Source of the DNA: Cavenderia fasciculata
Lineage: Eukaryota > Evosea > Eumycetozoa > Acytosteliales > Cavenderiaceae
DNA: 64,000 nucleotides
Direction: 5' to 3'
NCBI RefSeq assembly: GCF_000203815.1
Contig: NW_004457715.1
Coordinates: forward strand, 310,001-374,000
Shown: in pieces, positions 2,772-15,060 of the stretch
Position numbering within the stretch: position 1 is the first letter of the stretch
How the letters are laid out: each line of letters begins with the position of its first letter
Translations under genes and position numbers: made by a program
The notes under the pieces: generated by a model
Seen by the model: the letters and a program-made list of their open reading frames with translations, nothing else
Database searches by the model: none
What the model was told of the DNA's origin: nothing

Positions 2772-5700
2772 ATGATAAGGTTTAAACCGAAATCTATATC
2801 TTTGATAGTATTATTGCTAGTATTGCTACAAGTAGTAATCAATGTGGTTGATGGCGCACCACCCACCATCAATATGGCAGCCAATGTGTTTATCGGATAC
2901 AAAGGTGCTGTTAAGGTTTACACTGTTACTGCCGACACTGTATCAGTGTACTCTGTCATTGTTTCTAGCCCTCCCATCTCTCACCCTCCCTTAGATGTAG
3001 TTCCTCCCGTTGCTAGTGGATCACAGCTAACAATCACATTCCCAGCACTGCCTGGTTACTTAAAGTCAGACCCTATAGATGCTACTCTAATCATTTTCAA
3101 TGCCGCTGGCGAGGAAACAACAATTGCATTTAAATATTATGGTATGTTAAATTAAAAATTAATTAATTAATTAATTTATTAATGAACTAAACCAACTCTT
3201 TCTCTCTCTCTTTCTTTCTCTCTCTCTTTAGCACCAAAGGTTACAAGAATATTACCTGATAGTGGATTCAAAAGTGGAGGTACTATCATAACGATCACAG
3301 GATTTAATCTCTACTTTGCAGGACTACTCACAACTATTACTCTTGGTGGTGTTCCATGTACCGTCGTTAATGTTCCTACTGCTGCATCAATTCAATGTAC
3401 TACACCTTCTTTAATTGGTTCTCCTTCAGATTTGGTCAAATTACACTTGGAGGTTGATGGTAATGCTGACACTGCAGCTCCTGAATTTCTAAATTATGAT
3501 TTAATTGGTATGTTATATTTATTTAATTACTAGTTATTATTTAATTAATTTATTTATTTTACATTATTTAATTTTAGAACCTCAAATAGAAGATTTTGAA
3601 CCAAAATTTGGAAAGGCTATAGGAGGTGAATTGTTGATGATTACACTCAATGATAATCCTGATCCCCTTCCACTACTTCCAACATCTATTATGATTGGTA
3701 CTGCTCAATGTACTAGTATAAATAGACCCTCTTCATTGGTACTCACTTGTCTTACACCCACCATTTCAGATGTATCCCAACGATCTCTCAAAATCACAAT
3801 CAATCTAAACTCATTTGTAATTACATCTACATCAACTTTTAATTATCTTTGTATGTATAATAATAATAATAATTAGTTATTTATTTTATGCAACCGTCTA
3901 ATATATAAAATTATCTTTTTTTTTCTTTTTTTTTAAAGATCCAACAATCACATCAATTCAACCTGAAAGTGGATGGGCAGGAGGAGGAAAAGATATTATA
4001 TTTAGTGGTGATAATTTATTTGCAGCAACCTCTATCATTGCCAATATTGGAGATGAACTATGTACTGGATGTACTGTCATCACTGATAATACTGTCGTTC
4101 CAGTATCTTACAAGATTAAGTGTACTACTCCCGTTCGTATTGCTCCATACAATCTTGTATTATCAAAGATTGTAACACTCAAACTCAACAATCTTGAAGT
4201 ATTATACCCTCCAACTCCTTTCAAGTATACTTTTATTCGTAAGTCTTTATCATTTTATTAATATTTCAACTTTGTACATTTTTGAACTAAAATTTTTAAT
4301 CCTCAAACTAGAACACAACATTAAAAAGATCATACCAGAAAGAGGACAACCCGGTAGTACAATAACAATAACAGGAAACAATATTAAAGATGGAGTTGTT
4401 CAAATTAATGATTTAATTTGTCCAACCATTGCTTATGTTGTTTTAGAGCACACTGAGGAGATTACATGTAGGGTTCCAACACTATTTGTAAATGATGTTG
4501 ATGTCAATGTTGTTATCTTTGTTGATAATAACCCTTCAATTCTTTCATTACCTTTTGGTGTAACAACTCTTCCTAAATTCAGATATTATAGTATGTAGAA
4601 ACAAAAAAAGAATCATGATACATTCATTTTTAATCATTTATTAATTCATTATGATTATTATTTAATTGTAGAACCAATCATTTCAAATACAGAACCGATA
4701 CTATCATACACCAAAGGAACATTTGTTGTGACTATTCAAGGACAAGCTTTCTATGATATCACTCAAATCAAATATGGTGACAATGTACTTGACTCAACCA
4801 AATTCAATGTGATCGAATACAACAAAATCTATCTTCATGTGTTTAATGACCTTCCAACAATAGCTCATCTTCCAATAACCCTCACTACAACATTTGGTGA
4901 TTATTCAAAAGATGGTTTTGGTGTTCAATTTGTTGGTATGTTAACATTTACAAATGATATGAATGTGAATCTTTATCATTAATATTAATATTAATTTTTT
5001 ATTTATTTGTAGAACCTTCTATTATGACAATGGATACAATAAGAGGAATAGCATCAGGAGGAACAATAGTCAATATTCAGTTGGATGGAGTTGTTGAAGG
5101 AAGTTCATTTGAAATTAAAATTGGTGATAGATTATGTCAACCAACTATGGTTGTACCTGCACCTGCATTTGGATCGGTTCAATGTATCATTCCACCTTCA
5201 AAGTTTGAAGAACCTGAACTCGGTGGAACAGTCAGTGAAGATATTTCTATTATTGTCGGTTTATTGGGTTCAACATTGCCATTAACCTCATCACCATCTT
5301 CACAAACCTACACCACCACTTTAAAATACACCTATGAAGGACCATCGATTAATAACATCACACCTGCCAAGCTATCAATGAGTGGTGGCCGAGTTACCAT
5401 TGATGGTACCAATCTTGATAATCCCACCAAAGTTACAATCGGCACTGACAATTGTATGATCAGTACCACACCGACTCCACCAACTCCAACACAAATCATT
5501 TGTACTCTACCACCAACTTTACAATCAGGTTTATTAAATACCAATGTTATGCTTTCATCTGGTCTTTTAGCAAATAAGATAAAAATTACAATCGATGCAA
5601 CTTGTAAGTAAAAAATATCAATCATGATTATTTAATTTATATATTTATTAATTTATTTATTTCTATTTATAATCATTAGTACCAACCATATTGAGTATTT

Positions 5701-8700
5701 CACCAAAACAAGGACAAAAATCAGTAAATACAAACTTGGATGGTAGTTTTATGTTTATAACCATTAATGGTATCAATCTTGGCACAACAACGGCAACAAC
5801 ATCAGTTACAGTTGGTTTAGAATCATGTGCAATTGGAGTAGCTGGTACAATTGTTACAGCAAACCAAATTATATGTTTGAAACCAATCAGTACTGTTTCA
5901 GGGCCAGCCGAGGTTGTTGTTAAAGTGAACGGTATCGATTCGATTGATGAGGTGTACTATAGACAGAATGGTTTGTCTTGCTTTGGACAACCAGAGGCAG
6001 ATGGATCAAACTCACCAGTCGACTGGTTCCTCATCAAGAAATTCCCACATACTGGAACTACCGGTTTCGACGTGAACAGAGCATACATGTACACTGATTC
6101 ATCGGTCAAAGACAAAACAATGGAATTCAAAACCGACTTTGAATCTGCTGATAGCCCATTATCAATGACCTATACCCAATGGATGCATGATACACAATAC
6201 GGTTACATGTTTTTTAATGATCAAGTCAAAGGTGCACAAAAAGATGCTGGACATGTTAAAGGAATGCTATTTTGGGAGTTTTCTCCAGATGGTAGTACCT
6301 TGGAATCGGGTGTGCACATAATGCATTCACAACCACACTTTCCTGTTAATATGCACATCCCTCGAGATAAGGGTACAGGTGCTGCAGCACACCATACCTA
6401 TGCTACACCGAACCGACTATACAAATCTAAAAAATATGGTAGTTTGTGGGCAGGTAAAAGCAATAATTTAGGACAACATTTCTTTTGTTACAATCTCGAT
6501 GCTGCAGGTGTTGACAGAGTTGCCGAATACTTTATTAAAACCAATGCATGGGCTCTTCCGAGACCAAGATTATCAAGTGTTCCAAACCCCTCTCCGATCT
6601 ACAATGGAGCATATCTCACAACCACCACATGGCTCCATGAATTAAATACGATGACAATTCCTGGTCCAGGTAGAAAGGCAAATTATGGTCAATATAAAAT
6701 GAATGAATTTGTAGAAGTAAGTATATATTTTCATAACCCAAACAAACAACTAACATACATTTTATTTTATTTTATTTTTAGCTTTGTGAAGATAATATCA
6801 ATCAAATTAATTTAGGTGATATTTGTTATTGGACAATTAATGCTGTAGTTCCTGGGTTTGGTAAAGCCAAATACTTTGAAAAGACAACTATATTCACAGG
6901 ACCCTCGTCTGTTGCCGTGACATTTGGTATTCCAGTCGACCCAGCACTTGTTCCCCCATTTGTTGGTGGACCAGGAGAAGCGAGATTGATTGTTGCTCCT
7001 CGACCAAAACCAAAAGCTGTTGTGGCTAGCACTGTTCCAGAAAAGATTACGCAAGATGGTATCGATATCTGGGAGGTAATGGTCAATTACTACAAAAGAA
7101 GTTTCTTTGTATCAACCTATCTTATTGGACAGAAACCTCTTTTCCCAGTCCCCGGTATTTATAATGTTCATGTAACTCGTATGTAAATCAAAAATATCAT
7201 CCAACCAAGAAACTAATCTTCATTGGTTATCTATTTTTATATATTAATATTGATTAATTGTCACTCCCTTTTAGAAATTCCTTTACCAGATGGTTCATTG
7301 GGAAAGAATGGATATGCATACTTTAACAGCACTGATCATTCCAAGCTTGCATTCAACTTGGAACCAAAGATTGGAGCAGGTGCATATGACGATGGTGAGA
7401 ATATGATGTGTTTTGGTGATACTAATCGTCACTCGAAGCAACCAAAAAGAGGTGGTGGCGTCCTATGTATTCAATCACCTGAACTCGTTTATCAATTCAA
7501 CCGTTTTGTTTCTGGTTATGGATCAGTTGTATGTATTATTCATTATTATTATGACATACATCTATTCAAATGCTTACATTTCCAATACTAACACTTATAT
7601 ATTTTGAAATAGTTAAAATTCAAGGTATTTTCTGAGAGTTCACCAAGAGATATTAATCTTCCTGCACCTGCAGGTATAACGACCATACCATTAACATTTA
7701 ATCCAGCGAATGTGTTTAACCTTGTCAATCGTAACCCAATCAACTCGATTGCACCTACTGTCACAAGATTCGCACCAGGTGATAATGTTTTCGGTACAGG
7801 TGTTATAGTTCCAGTCCCCACCGTTGCACCAGCTACGGCAACAAACGTTCAGTTATCGAATTCCTTAAAGTATTTTGTTTTATATAATGGAAATCTACCA
7901 GTTATGAACCCAACAAATCCTGCTAAATATTTGTTTGTCGATGCCTCTTATGTTGTTCCAGTCGGCCATAAAGCTTTAACTGCTGTGGCTTACACTATCA
8001 CCGTTCATCAGACCATTAGAATGGAAAGAATACCAACTTTGGGATACGCTGGTGAGTTGATATTCGATCTATATGATTATGCAGTAGATTTCACTATCCC
8101 CGCTGCACCTGTCAACGTCTATACTCCCAAGACACCCAATCTACTCGTCTCAACCACCAATGTACCTATTGATAGACTATTACCACCAATCAAAGTTATG
8201 CGTACCGATCTTACTCATGTTGGAACCGAATATGAATTGGTGTATCCAGACGCTCACTTTAAATCAATCAAAGGAATCAAAGCACACGATGCATTTGCAC
8301 CTCTATTTGTTGCATACAGTCAAGGTGTAGCTGGCATTTGTTTGATTGGTGATATCGATCCTATTTACGGTTGTACATTGGAAAAGGCAATTAGATCAAG
8401 GGCACCTACTGTCACTGAACTACTTGTATCACCTGTATCGCCACCACCAGGGCCACTCATTGTACCTTCACTCTATGGGTTCCCTGGGAAAGACCAAGTA
8501 GTGGATTCAACAAGAAGATTCCAATTCAGTGGTACCGACAATACATTCAAGATTCTAAAGTTTGTCAGTCAATTCCAAGAAGAGCTTGGTCAAATACCAC
8601 CTCTAATCGGTGGATTGGCTGCGTCATCACTTGATGGGTTTGACATTGCCATTGACACTACTATTGCTCAATCAACAGTAACAGTCGATGGTACAACTAT

Positions 8701-11700
8701 CATTTTGAAATCTGATCAACTTTGTGCTGATGAATTATCGTATCTCCTTTTACTCACCGTCGTTGCAAGAGAATCAAACATCAAGGGTCATGCCAGTCCA
8801 TTAGCTTATGGAACTAGTCCACTCAACTGGTCAAATGGTATCCTTATTGCCATTTCAAAATTAATTTCAAATGTATGTAAATAATATTATTATTATTTAA
8901 TTAATTATTATTATTTAATTTACAAATCAAGATTATTAATCAATCATTATTTCTTTTGTTTTTTTTTTAGAAAATTGAAGTTCCTTTTGCAACACCTAGT
9001 TTAATTGGTGGATGTTTTACTGCAGTCGGTGCTATTGATTTGGTTACATTTGCTGATAATGTCAATATTGGATCATTCAAAAATACTGCTGCTGCCACTT
9101 GGATACTAAGTTCCTCTCCCGATTGGTTACCAGATTCCATGTTTAAATTATTATTTAAAGTCAAGACAACCGATCATATTCAATCATTGAGTGATCTCTA
9201 TAATATGAGGGGACTGCCACCACCATATCCAACAGTATTTTACGACAAATACATTATTATTCGTCCATTTAGCGCAAAGATGGATGTCGACGATGATGAA
9301 CCTGCTGCTCGTCATATGATGTCATTATTCACAATACCAACAACAACAACATCAGATGTTGAAACCAACCAAAATATAGTATCACCACTCCAACAACTAT
9401 TCAACTTTATTGACCAAGCTGCATTTACACCAGATGAATTATTACAACTTGACAATCAACAAATCAACCTATTAAAAGAATCATTGGACAAATGGGTTGA
9501 TATTTCATCAGAGAATCAAGGTATCAAAGTATTACTCAAAGATCCAATCACCCAAACATCCAACCAAATCATCAAATACCTTGATGAAGTCAACTCTGTT
9601 CAATATGGAGTGTCTTCTGATCACATTGAATTATGTTATTTGGCAATCGGTGGTGGAGGTCAACAAGAATACAAGATTGAAATATGTTCACCAATGTCAA
9701 TCGTTTACCTCACCAACACATTGAAACGTATTCAAATGACAGCATCAACTCTTTCAAAGAACTTTTGTGACTTGACATTGTACCATTTGCCATTATCATC
9801 AGAATATGATGGATATGTTTCTGATGGAGTAGATGGTTTAATGATTGCAACACTCAACTCCAAGTTGTGTGATGCTCAAATGACTACTCTTTCATCGTTC
9901 CAATCGAATTCATTCTCGACTCTTTGTACTCAATCAGGACCGATTATTACAAGTCTATCAACAAACAATGGTGCGTCAATTGGAGGGTACCAACTATTGG
10001 TCAATGGATATAGATTCCAATCAAATTTGAATATTACCATTGGTGGTGTTAGATGTTCTCAAACAATATTCCAGACATCACAACTTGTACAATGTGTAGT
10101 TCCACCAAACACAGGTATCAACCACCTCGTATCATTCACATCGAATCATATTCAATCAACTCTATTTTATTTCTCTTACAATCGTATGTTTCGCTATAAC
10201 TATTAATTAGTTAAATTTTAAATTATTTAATTCTACCTTTTTTCATTTCTAACCTTTTATTTTTTTTATACCTTTATAGAACCAATAATCAACAATGTAT
10301 TAGTATCAGATATAACAAGATCAGTATCAGAGATAACAATCAAAGGTGCAAACTTTGGTAATAGTGGAGGCAACGACAACTCACTTTATATCTCTATTGA
10401 TCAATACCAATGCTTTAATATTATTCAACATGTTGACTCCACCATCAGATGTAGAATTAAAAGTAGAGTTGCTGCCAACAACTTTGTCAATGTTTCAATA
10501 TCCAACGACAATAGCAACGGTATTAGACAGACATCAGTATTCCATTTGAATCAAATCACAAATACTCAATTCAATTATTCCTATGTTCCAAATATCGTTG
10601 CAGTATTACCAAGTCATGGATTTGCTCGTGATTTGGTGACAGTGGTTGGTGATTCATTTGCCAATGGAGATGCATTACCATTGTCATACTTTAAGGATAC
10701 AAGATCAACAGTCCTGCCACCAGGTGATATGGGTGATGATATCTTGACCGTTCGAGTACCACAAATAACTCGAGACTCTCAACTCTTGGTGTCAGTCGAT
10801 AATATTGGTAGTAATCTCAAGTCATTCACTTTGGATCAACCTTTTATTGAATCAATCTCACCAAGTCGTGTTAGTTCATCAGGTGGTGTCATCATCATTA
10901 AAGGAGGTGGATGGGGTATGTCTCGTCAAGCTATCGACTATGTCAAACTTGGTTCTACACCAATCAGCTGTACTCCATTCAACAAATTCCTCGAATGTAT
11001 TGTTCCACCAAGCACTGGTGAAGTTAATACTCTCACTGTCTCTTTTAGTGGTAGAGTCACGACATCATACCTCTCAGACTATGGTATGTCATATTCAACA
11101 CCTCGAATCACATCGTACACTGAATCATCAGGAGTACTCACAATCAGAGGTGTCGACTTTGTCAACATTGGCACCCAAACATCACCTCAAAACAGTTATT
11201 TGAATGTTGTATCGAATATGAATCGACCATTGTCATATCAACAGCTCACATTTGTCAACAAGACAACCATCACAGCCACTCTCACATCTCTCTTGTCAGG
11301 AGAATCAGTAGAATCAGTTCAAGTATTAATATTTGGCATGGAATCTAATACTTACTACCATGCACGATATGGATGTGATGGATGGGTTAGAAACGGTGAC
11401 TACAATTATATTCCATTACATTATGGAGTTTATCCATTAAAAGATTATGGATTCTGTACCACACCTTCATGTATTGCATCTTATCAAAAATCATCTGGTG
11501 AAGCTGGTTGTATCATTGTAGTTGATAGTAATACTGGTGTTCTTACACTATCTTATGGTATGTTATATTAATTATTATATTAGCAAATTATTAATTATTT
11601 ATTAATTTTATTTATTTATTTAGAATACACAATTAATCTAAATACCTATGTAGATGCTCATATTGATGGTGTATTTGATAGTGCTTACGATAATAGAAAC

Positions 11701-14700
11701 TCTGAATTAGCCAATTCAATGATCATTCTTGTGGCGTACCCAACCGCCGGCTCTGTTTATGTCAGTAGACTATTTTATCCATCAATGTCAAGACTTGATT
11801 GTCCATCTATATGTCTCATCAATGTATCTTCGACTAATGCAAGTTATATACCTATTATAAATAATTGGAGAGCAGACTTTACAGTCAACAAACAACCTCG
11901 ATCGTTTGACATTGGTTTCTACGACAAGAGAATATTTGGAGAACCAAGAGTAGCATTCTTTTCAAGTGGATTCGGTAGTGGACTTCGTCTATCACTTCCA
12001 TATGGTCGTTTCCGTATCTCATTTGAATGTCAATCGTACACTATCCCCACCAATATCAATGTTGCTGTATATTTACCTGGTGTTGTAGATCCTATTATAT
12101 ACGTACCACCAGGAGGAAACACTCTCAAACAAGCAACAACATTTGATGTCTATCGAAATGGTATGTTTTTTATTTCGGCCAAAAGAATTCTTTTACTTTA
12201 TAACTAATTGATGAATTATTTTTTAGATATATTGAATGCTTATAGTGGAGGACTTAATCCATTGGGTCAAAACATTAGTTTTGAAAATATCTATCATCCA
12301 AGAGTGCCATCTTATTATATTGGAACTTCTTTATTAGTTTGTTCAAGCATACCACCAAGTAACATTTGGACCTGTATAGTACCACCTAAAACAGGTTCTG
12401 CACCTTTAACTTTTTCAACCTATTCGATGGTCGGCACAACTTTGACCAAGTTTTACAAAGAGTTCCCAATCACCTACACTAGTGTTGTAGTTGCCTCTGG
12501 CTCTGTCTTTATGGACTATGACAGAGACAATACATTCAATAATATAGATGAGAAAATGGCAGGACACACAGTTCAAATCAAATCAGGTAGTACTGTATTG
12601 GCATCACAAAATACAGTGGCCGGTGCTATTGGTTTCTCATTTAGTATGAGTTACATCCCAACCAATGCTCGTATATACATTTATCCATCGCCTGGATGTA
12701 TTTCATACTTCTCATCGTTCCCATTCTCGTCTCCCATTGTCAAAGATTTCCCCCTTTATCAATTAGATATGTTTGGTATCGAATTGAGCAAACAATGTCA
12801 AGGATATTTAACAGCTGGAACCGAGCAATTGAATTTACAAAGTGGTACATACGATCTATCAAAATTTGGATGGTGTAAATCACCCTCTGTATGCGCCAAC
12901 GTCATCACTTCTGAAACCTTCCCAGACTATTGCACACCTGTTTACAGTGGAACCATGGTGACCATTGATTACAATGCACAGGTTACACTCACCTTTTGGC
13001 TTAGTAACTCACCAGGTTTACCATACAGTTCAAACAAATTGCCCCCTTCATCAATGTTCCAATACGGTGTTGCAGCTAGATCCATTATAAATGCATCATA
13101 TTACACATTCTACTTTACTGTTCCAGCCAATGGAATTCTCAAGTTTAATGTACCCTTTGGCACAACAAACCTAATCATCACTCCACCCAGTATCTTTGAT
13201 CATATAGTTGATGGAACCACCATTGACTTTACAACCAGTGAGAGTGTACCATCATTCGCCAAGACACTAGCAGTCTTTTCTCCAGCCACCCACTTTTACA
13301 ACAGTGCATCAGTCAACATTCTCAGTCTCCCATTAGGTTTCTACAACTTTACATGGTACTCTAAACAAGGTCAAATCAAATCATTCAGTGCACATCCATC
13401 AATGAGTATTTATGTTTGGAATAATGCAGGTACTCTTTATAATGTTGCTAGAAATGGAAATAATATTCAACTTCCAGATACACTTGCATTGACTGTTGAA
13501 AATACTCCAACTAGTATGTATAAATACAAAATCAATTTTTAAAATCAATTATAAATTAATATATATTAACAAACTCTTTTTTTAAACTATTACTTTTTTT
13601 TAGATTTATATAGTTTCGCAGTCCCACCAGATGGATTACAATTCACAATGCCAACTCCTTATTCTTATGTCCCATTCCTTTTTATTGAAGGATTAGAGAT
13701 TGAATGTGAAAATAACTATATTAATTGTAAAATTCCATCACACATTGGAGGTACAACTTCAAAAGCAAAATTGAAGCATGCTGGAACGTTCTTTTATCAC
13801 ACTTGGACTATTACCTATCAAAAGAGATTCGAAATTCCATCTGCTGGATCAAGTTATTTGGCAGCAGGACAATCGTTGACACTGGGAGTAAACGATATTG
13901 GAGTAATGATCAAGTACCCTCTCAACCCAGGAGTTGGACAACCATACACCTACTTTTCTCTCTCCCCTACAGGCATCAAGATTGGTTTCCAAGCAGGCCC
14001 AACCAATAGTCACATCTACCAGGTACTTTCTTCTCAGTATGACCAATCATTTACTGCACCTTTCTCATTCAAGGTAGAATCTGACTATAACATTGGATTG
14101 TGGGGTACCAAATCAGGAGCATTATCCCGTGGTGCTTGGTATCTTGACAAATCTCCTCTTCCTCTCCAATCATCATACTTGCAAGTTGTTCGTGATGGAG
14201 TCATTGTTCAAAACAGCGCTGGAAACGTACAATGGTCCAGATTAAAACCACTCAATTATTCTGGACTTGCACGTCCACTTGGTGCTCAAATAGACTATCT
14301 TGACGCACTTGACACCAACAAGAATTTCTTGACAATGGGAAGATTCCTAACCAATGGTGAAAGCTATCTTAGATTTGATAATGATGGAAGTCTTCGTCTA
14401 TACAATGACAACTCCTTCACAGCCTATTCATGGCAAGTCTTTTTTAGTGGTGGCATTATGAATCTCCTTCCACCAATCAAATGGGTTTTCACAGCCAATA
14501 GTCTCTGCGCTCACGGTCAGTCAATACTCACCCCAATTGTGGGGTGCATCCAATTCAATGCTCCAGCTCGTTACCTATTTGTTGCCCCACCAACATACGG
14601 ATCGTCACAATTTTCAATGACAGTGACCAATTATTTTGGAGCACTTGTTTACTCTCAAGGATCTGCTCCAACCTCGCCATACAAGATGATCCCAGGTACC

Positions 14701-15060
14701 TTTATGGAGTTTGGTGATGCACTGATTCATGGACAATTCCTCACCAATGGAGTTGAGAAACTCTTTGTCAAACCAAATGGAGTGTTTAGAAGAGAAGCAT
14801 CTGGAAGTGAAACAACCCTTGCATCTGGAGTCGTCAACGCCATTATCGCTTCTAGTACACTTCAATTTGGTGGCCTCATGACAGTAACTCCACCAGGTAC
14901 TTACAAATACGTATTCTATCCACCACCTGGTCACAATCTTCCCAATGTCGACCCAGTCACAAAACTTGTCTTTGTAACAGCTGCTGGAAGAGGTGCTGGA
15001 ACCTCCAACCCTGCTGCTCAATTTGTTATCTATGATCAAAAATATTGGGCAAATATTTAA
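2772..15060 (+). CDS. Giant secreted IPT/TIG protein with embedded DNase II domain
   Basis: Sixteen exons: 2772-3141, 3232-3507, 3578-3850, 3939-4238, 4312-4590, 4672-4935, 5013-5603, 5680-6716, 6782-7178, 7275-7528, 7613-8872, 8971-10183, 10280-11557, 11624-12160, 12227-13513, 13604-15060. They sum to 3,690 residues. A signal peptide (about 1-28, hydrophobic core ISLIVLLLVLLQVVINVV) is followed by about eight IPT/TIG E-set repeats to residue 880. Residues about 880-1347 are DNase II-like: PVDWFLIKKFP start, GHVKG (His976, Lys978), HSQPHFP, DHSK (His1284, Lys1286), CFGDTNRHSKQPKRGGGVLC. Both HxK active-site motifs of DNase II are thus present. After an unassigned stretch (1348-2085) come about five more IPT repeats (to about 2500), SdrB-like segments near 2600 and 2800, two copies of a Cys-containing module, and a C-terminal part with bulb-lectin-like stretches. 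No membrane segment or GPI signal is evident, so the protein is probably secreted. An acid-nuclease activity is inferred from the motifs only. Confidence 0.85.
5970..7528 (+). other. DNase II-like domain coding segment (exons 8-10)
   Basis: This segment of the giant gene encodes about 465 residues, longer than the roughly 350 of animal DNase II. Family landmarks appear in the right order: Gly-Leu-Ser-Cys then Pro-Val-Asp-Trp-Phe; a Tyr-Met-Tyr block; Gly-Tyr-Met-Phe-Phe-Asn-Asp; the first HxK motif in Gly-His-Val-Lys-Gly (6249-6263); Met-His-Ser-Gln-Pro-His-Phe-Pro; then, after two introns, Asp-His-Ser-Lys (7334-7345), the second HxK motif; Gly-Asp-Thr-Asn-Arg; and Arg-Gly-Gly-Gly-Val-Leu-Cys. 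DNase II is a phospholipase-D-like endonuclease that cuts double-stranded DNA at acid pH without metal ions, using two HxK motifs. The extra length is mostly in the middle (about 6330-7270). Confidence 0.85.

Follow-up and report, generated by a model that had tools for sequence, protein, structure and literature searches.

A giant protein of Cavenderia fasciculata carries a DNase II domain between two runs of IPT/TIG modules, and it belongs to a family whose genes lie in pairs, one type (B) with the nuclease motifs almost always intact and the other (A) with those motifs lost. Its gene lies in the window, a 64,000-nucleotide stretch of contig C9 (C9:310001-374000); the genome searched for relatives comprises 31.0 Mb on 21 contigs. 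Known DNase II enzymes are stand-alone proteins of about 350 residues. What would a nuclease do on such a scaffold, and why would it be accompanied by a relative with a ruined active site? We put it slightly above an even bet, from the sequences, that an adhesive scaffold in B carries an acid-type nuclease, which works with a dead-nuclease partner, A. This reading builds on four observations documented below, namely the in-frame fusion, the register of the HxK motifs, the A/B pairs and the loss of the motifs from A, and it continues with conditional steps: (i) A and B would be produced together, perhaps from a shared promoter; (ii) both would be secreted, as hydropathy suggests; (iii) their TIG or DNase II domains would serve to assemble them in the sheath, in the matrix or at the cell surface; (iv) B would cut DNA at acid pH by the two-HxK DNase II route; and (v) A would bind DNA or B without cutting.

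The window gene was modelled by a script that uses codon use and GT..AG introns. The model runs on the + strand from an ATG at 2772 to a stop ending at 15060 and has 16 exons (2772-3141, 3232-3507, 3578-3850, 3939-4238, 4312-4590, 4672-4935, 5013-5603, 5680-6716, 6782-7178, 7275-7528, 7625-8872, 8971-10183, 10280-11557, 11624-12160, 12227-13513 and 13604-15060), which encode 3,686 residues; an alternative acceptor, placed by hand 12 nt before the start of exon 11, adds four residues. Coordinates and strand agree with the original prediction, and its length of 3,690 residues is the one that the alternative acceptor gives. The protein begins with a hydrophobic N-terminus (2772..2855), a single segment whose hydropathy fits the predicted signal peptide; a simple hydropathy scan picked up no membrane segment beyond it, either here or in a tandem twin of the gene that lies just upstream of the window start (C9:296852-308902). 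IPT/TIG modules follow in exons 2-7 (3232..5603; seven TIG stretches within residues 1-1348), then the DNase II domain (residues 881-1344, exons 8-10; 5967..7519) and a middle region that takes in exon 11 and the greater part of exon 12 (7625..9900, the far end approximate); this region recurs in the twin and at the B loci of C2 and C7, and its exon 11 is matched by neither Pfam nor NCBIfam. The second TIG run takes up the end of exon 12, with one stretch, and exon 13, with four (9940..11557), giving 12 TIG stretches in all (Pfam, E up to 1) where about 13 IPT repeats had been counted. The C-terminal region (exons 14-16; 11624..15060), with similar sequence in the twin and in one C17 reading frame, contains no family match passing its cut-off, and the lectin-like character ascribed to it was not borne out: no meaningful Pfam, NCBIfam or PDB-sequence match was obtained. 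SdrB-like modules, also proposed, have no Pfam match in the window exons and gain indirect support from the B paralog at C14, in which SdrD_B matches at E 2.3e-6 (28.2 bits, below the cut-off of 29.7). Structure prediction run without an alignment returned a pLDDT of 32 for exon 8 and 32 for exon 16.

The assignment of the domain to the DNase II family holds. The DNase_II profile of Pfam (PF03265) matches the window protein in two stretches at 128.6 bits, against a curated cut-off of 23 (E 3.8e-37), which confirms the family membership inferred earlier. The motifs GHVKG, DHSKL, GDTNR and RGGG start at residues 975, 1283, 1310 and 1321; His976-Val-Lys978 (6252..6260) and His1284-Ser-Lys1286 (7337..7345) are exactly where the two HxK motifs had been placed, and the GDTNR and RGGG landmarks span 7415..7459. 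A profile was built from six domains, five of type B and one belonging to a stand-alone DNase II that the genome also encodes. It matches the solved DNase II of Burkholderia thailandensis (5i3e; E 1.6e-23) and brings GDxNR, RGGG and the two HxK motifs into register with it, so that the domain looks as complete as had been claimed; used singly, the window domain reaches E 5.8e-5 against 5i3e, in an alignment that is beyond doubt for the C-terminal part only. The likeness to 5i3e ends with the domain: 5i3e is a stand-alone chain of 358 residues, whereas the window domain sits inside a protein of about 3,690 residues made of other modules and has a paired dead relative. Both HxK motifs are required for DNase II activity, as Schafer et al. 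are said to have found in 2007. The centre of DNase II is described as pseudodimeric in PMC4148230, and the two HxK motifs of the window domain would be expected to meet in one site in space.

Could the union of nuclease and TIG modules be an artefact, an adjoining TIG gene and DNase II gene fused by a wrong splice model? The twin is 85% identical to the window protein over 3,689 aligned positions and keeps the whole module order. Introns 6, 12 and 14 of the window gene (4936-5012, 10184-10279 and 12161-12226) are exactly absent from the twin, which matches the three 60-base exon junctions at 54, 55 and 57 of 60 positions with no gaps; these three are the introns confirmed by absence. The remaining 12 of 15 introns are common to both copies and hence lack this confirmation; among them are introns 7-10, which flank or interrupt the DNase domain and leave the artefact its one foothold. 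Against it stand paralogs in which no splicing is needed: at C2, a TIG match (1355716-1355937) and a DNase_II match (1356025-1356429) share one 376-aa open frame, which holds the DNase_II start; in the B gene at C14, a 651-aa frame runs from the last part of the DNase II domain into about 400 residues beyond it; and the A frame at C14 (1,317 aa), which by alignment starts inside the DNase II-like domain, contains four TIG stretches. Because the C2 frame spans TIG and the DNase_II start and the twin keeps the order, it is unlikely that exons 1-7 and 8-10 belong to separate genes, and we reject a splice-model fusion as very improbable. The proposal of a DNase II domain within one giant, probably secreted TIG protein holds on the evidence of the single C2 frame and the order conserved in the twin. 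Introns 6, 12 and 14 also record a recent intron loss or gain between the two copies.

The window protein turned out not to be the sole one of its kind. Across the genome, PF03265 gives 33 exon-level matches, 25 of which, by our own count, fall at nine loci with TIG matches on the same strands (C9, C14, C7, C17, C2, C5, C13a, C13b and C13c). The other eight are a stand-alone DNase II at C7:1359541, three matches on C12 and one each on C1, C16, C18 and C21, the last two unclassified, and none of these has a TIG neighbour among the 150 TIG matches scored, of 449 candidates. The genes on C12 (1289505-1295825, three in tandem), C1 (235369) and C16 (382855) are DNase II-like genes of a third kind, whose frames carry HEKG and DHSK. 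At the nine loci two layouts recur: type A has an N-terminal DNase II domain followed by a middle region and then TIGs, and type B has TIGs, DNase II and further TIGs. Each locus holds one A and one B type, and 19 genes were read (nine A and ten B), the window gene being an extra tandem B copy behind its twin at C9. On C13, the A/B pair occurs three times between 380 and 441 kb, about 24 kb apart.

A and B are divergent, head to head, at eight of the nine loci (at C13c the order rests on match positions and open frames). The two departures count against a reading in which A and B work as partners: at C17 both genes lie on the + strand in tandem, A first, and at C9 it is the twin that A faces, so that the window gene has no head-to-head A of its own and instead faces a BTB/TLDc gene. 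The predicted gap between start codons is 821 bp at C9, 752 at C14, 877 at C7, 1302 at C2 and 1448 at C5; it is 553 or 610 bp at C13a, which has two possible B starts, and 630 or 687 bp at C13b, worked out by hand from open frames. The first A exons at C14, C7, C13a and C13b are the best-scoring candidates only. These short gaps may act as shared promoters. Across six of them (C9, C14, C7, C2, C13a and C5), eight nine-base words recur in at least four gaps, where a crude shuffle gives 0.1 on average, although some are simple repeats, and no ten-base word recurs; ATCAACAA, present in five of the six, and AACTTCACA, in four, are possible, if weak, candidates for shared control elements. Near 2635, ahead of the window gene, ATCAACAA occurs once more. 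A further difficulty concerns the fate of A: a hydropathy scan of the A protein at C9, whose model overruns into the neighbouring gene at the far end and whose length was therefore left unused, marks two weak hydrophobic stretches at residues 2021-2067, so that A may not be simply soluble and could be membrane-bound.

The surroundings of the C9 cluster have a history of their own. Downstream of the window gene, on the - strand from 15128 to about 19710, lies a gene that encodes a ComC supersandwich domain (E 1e-17 for ComC_SSD), an EGF-like stretch slightly below its cut-off and, by eye, a membrane-like segment; a similar ComC-like stretch (81% DNA identity) lies past the A gene at C9:282261-283229, and together the two mean that the cluster is flanked by ComC-like genes at both ends. 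Upstream, the BTB/TLDc gene occupies 575-1764 on the - strand, and a second TLDc-like frame is found behind the twin (C9:309027-309458), from which we infer that this neighbour was duplicated along with the B gene.

How do the active sites divide between the two types? In the aligned set, both HxK motifs are intact in seven of seven B domains and in none of six A domains; the first His is lost in all six A, and in the A of C2 the second motif keeps its His with Lys replaced by Arg. With C5, C13b and C13c added (C5 read by eye from the model, C13b and C13c from open frames and six-frame translations), the tally becomes nine of ten B and none of nine A. At C5, the one exception, B lacks both catalytic His, which is a point against B being a working nuclease throughout. 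Among the aligned B domains GDxNR is kept in all seven and RGGG in six, the remaining one reading RGSG, and the rest of the domain is widely different.

The near-universal retention of both motifs in B is what would be expected if, along the lines of the original prediction, B alone digested bacterial, trap or dead-cell DNA in the phagosome or slime, with the TIG modules as a stalk and A as a by-product; the second tandem B copy, which lacks an A of its own, also suits this scheme. It leaves unexplained why A is retained beside B at nine loci, and the genome already has a stand-alone DNase II, at C7:1359541, in which both HxK motifs are present. Because the A partner has lost active-site residues in the A/B pairs, a scheme of DNA digestion with B alone is incomplete, and we regard it as unlikely, though a serious contender. 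The opposite scheme, in which the DNase II fold of both types serves only for binding and the proteins are adhesion or recognition molecules, catalysis being irrelevant even in B, draws on the loss of motifs in all nine A and in the B of C5, and it has a precedent: in Trichinella spiralis, 125 DNase II-like genes are predicted, only one of them with the HKD motif (PMC4148230). That expansion resembles the present one in its many DNase II-like genes, most without HKD, and differs in that the accessible part of the source mentions neither TIG modules nor gene pairs. The conserved motifs of B, in nine of ten proteins for HxK and in seven and six of seven aligned domains for GDxNR and RGGG, argue against pure binding, which appears doubtful to us.

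The history of the pairs bears on all of these readings. In a tree of six A, seven B and one stand-alone domain, a set without C5, C13b and C13c, A forms one clade (100/99) and B another (99/97). C13 and C14 group together in both A and B, and so do C9 and C17, for A at 96/94 (full tree) and 88/88 (A tree), for B at 93/94 (separate B tree). The agreement is incomplete: the full tree groups the B of C2 with C13 and C14 at 96/95, which the A tree does not mirror, and leaves the B of C17 unplaced, both of which weigh against A and B as lasting partners. A Mantel test over seven loci, which left out C13b and C13c and took the window copy to represent C9, gave a correlation between A and B distances of r 0.50 (61 of 5040 permutations as high), and of r 0.69 over the six loci without C5 (8 of 720 permutations as high); we read this as the pair having been copied as a unit, not as a demonstration of binding.

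Recent duplicates tell how the two types change. One A exon compared between C13a and C13b is 94% identical, with a dN/dS of 0.32, which places that exon under constraint and speaks against A as a by-product; four B pieces are 63-77% identical (dN/dS 0.51-0.68), a fast divergence of B relative to A that would suit proteins used for binding only. For the comparison of window gene and twin, dN/dS is 0.39 over the whole length. The DNase domain, at 0.46, gives a value that suggests selective constraint, and its identity, 73%, is well below that of the whole protein (86%). The divergence of these two copies is patchy, with exons 4 and 13 at 97-98% amino acid identity and exons 8-10 at 73-82%, and gene conversion together with diversification of the nuclease part is a possible cause.

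The layout of divergent TIG genes, here with a putatively live nuclease paired with a dead partner, recalls TgrB1 and TgrC1 of Dictyostelium discoideum, whose genes are called paired diverging genes (PMC12324515) and have a 523-bp common promoter (PMC5288501). The likeness consists of IPT/TIG proteins (12 stretches in the window protein) and of divergent pairs with a short gap, at eight of nine loci and not at the window copy. The differences are that Tgr proteins are transmembrane, while hydropathy gives the window protein and its twin no membrane segment beyond the N-terminus, and that a nuclease domain, present in the A/B proteins, is not mentioned for TgrB1/TgrC1 in the accessible parts of these sources. 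By analogy, members of the A/B family may be recognition proteins. In its most elaborate form, this idea would make the pair a two-part extracellular recognition system, with dead head A and live head B encoded head to head and copied as a unit, which bind each other or DNA between cells and couple recognition to DNA cutting, in a lineage without listed tgrB1/tgrC1; we consider this decidedly speculative. In one survey, the listing of tgrB1 is confined to group 4 and that of tgrC1 to D. discoideum (PMC4931340), in contrast to a tgrC1 ortholog reported in D. purpureum (PMC3188802); the same survey counts 55 IPT/TIG proteins in D. discoideum, 76 in D. lacteum and 110 in P. pallidum, with C. fasciculata outside the count (PMC4931340).

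Other known systems share single features. Colossin A of Dictyostelium is likewise a giant dictyostelid protein of repeated bacterial-type modules; unlike the window protein, it has Cna_B repeats, and the accessible part of the source mentions no nuclease domain (PMC3188802). The term "deoxyribonuclease II activity" is among the GO terms enriched in dictyostelid lineage-specific expansions, where the excerpt available names no architecture (PMC8535579). A full-text search of one open-access collection, which leaves most subscription papers outside, for DNase II together with TIG, IPT or dictyostelids found no described protein of this kind. Relatives were likewise absent for exon 8 among plasmids, for the profile among viral contigs and for the domain among genome contigs, which says little because these collections are not of amoebae.

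Both domains are known; what was not found described in the open-access literature searched is the union of DNase II and TIG in giant pairs, one member with an intact active site and the other with a ruined one. If B is active, C. fasciculata would hold a nuclease on an adhesive scaffold outside the cell. Should A and B bind each other, they would be candidates for recognition or for defence of the sheath in dictyostelids beyond the group for which tgrB1 is listed.
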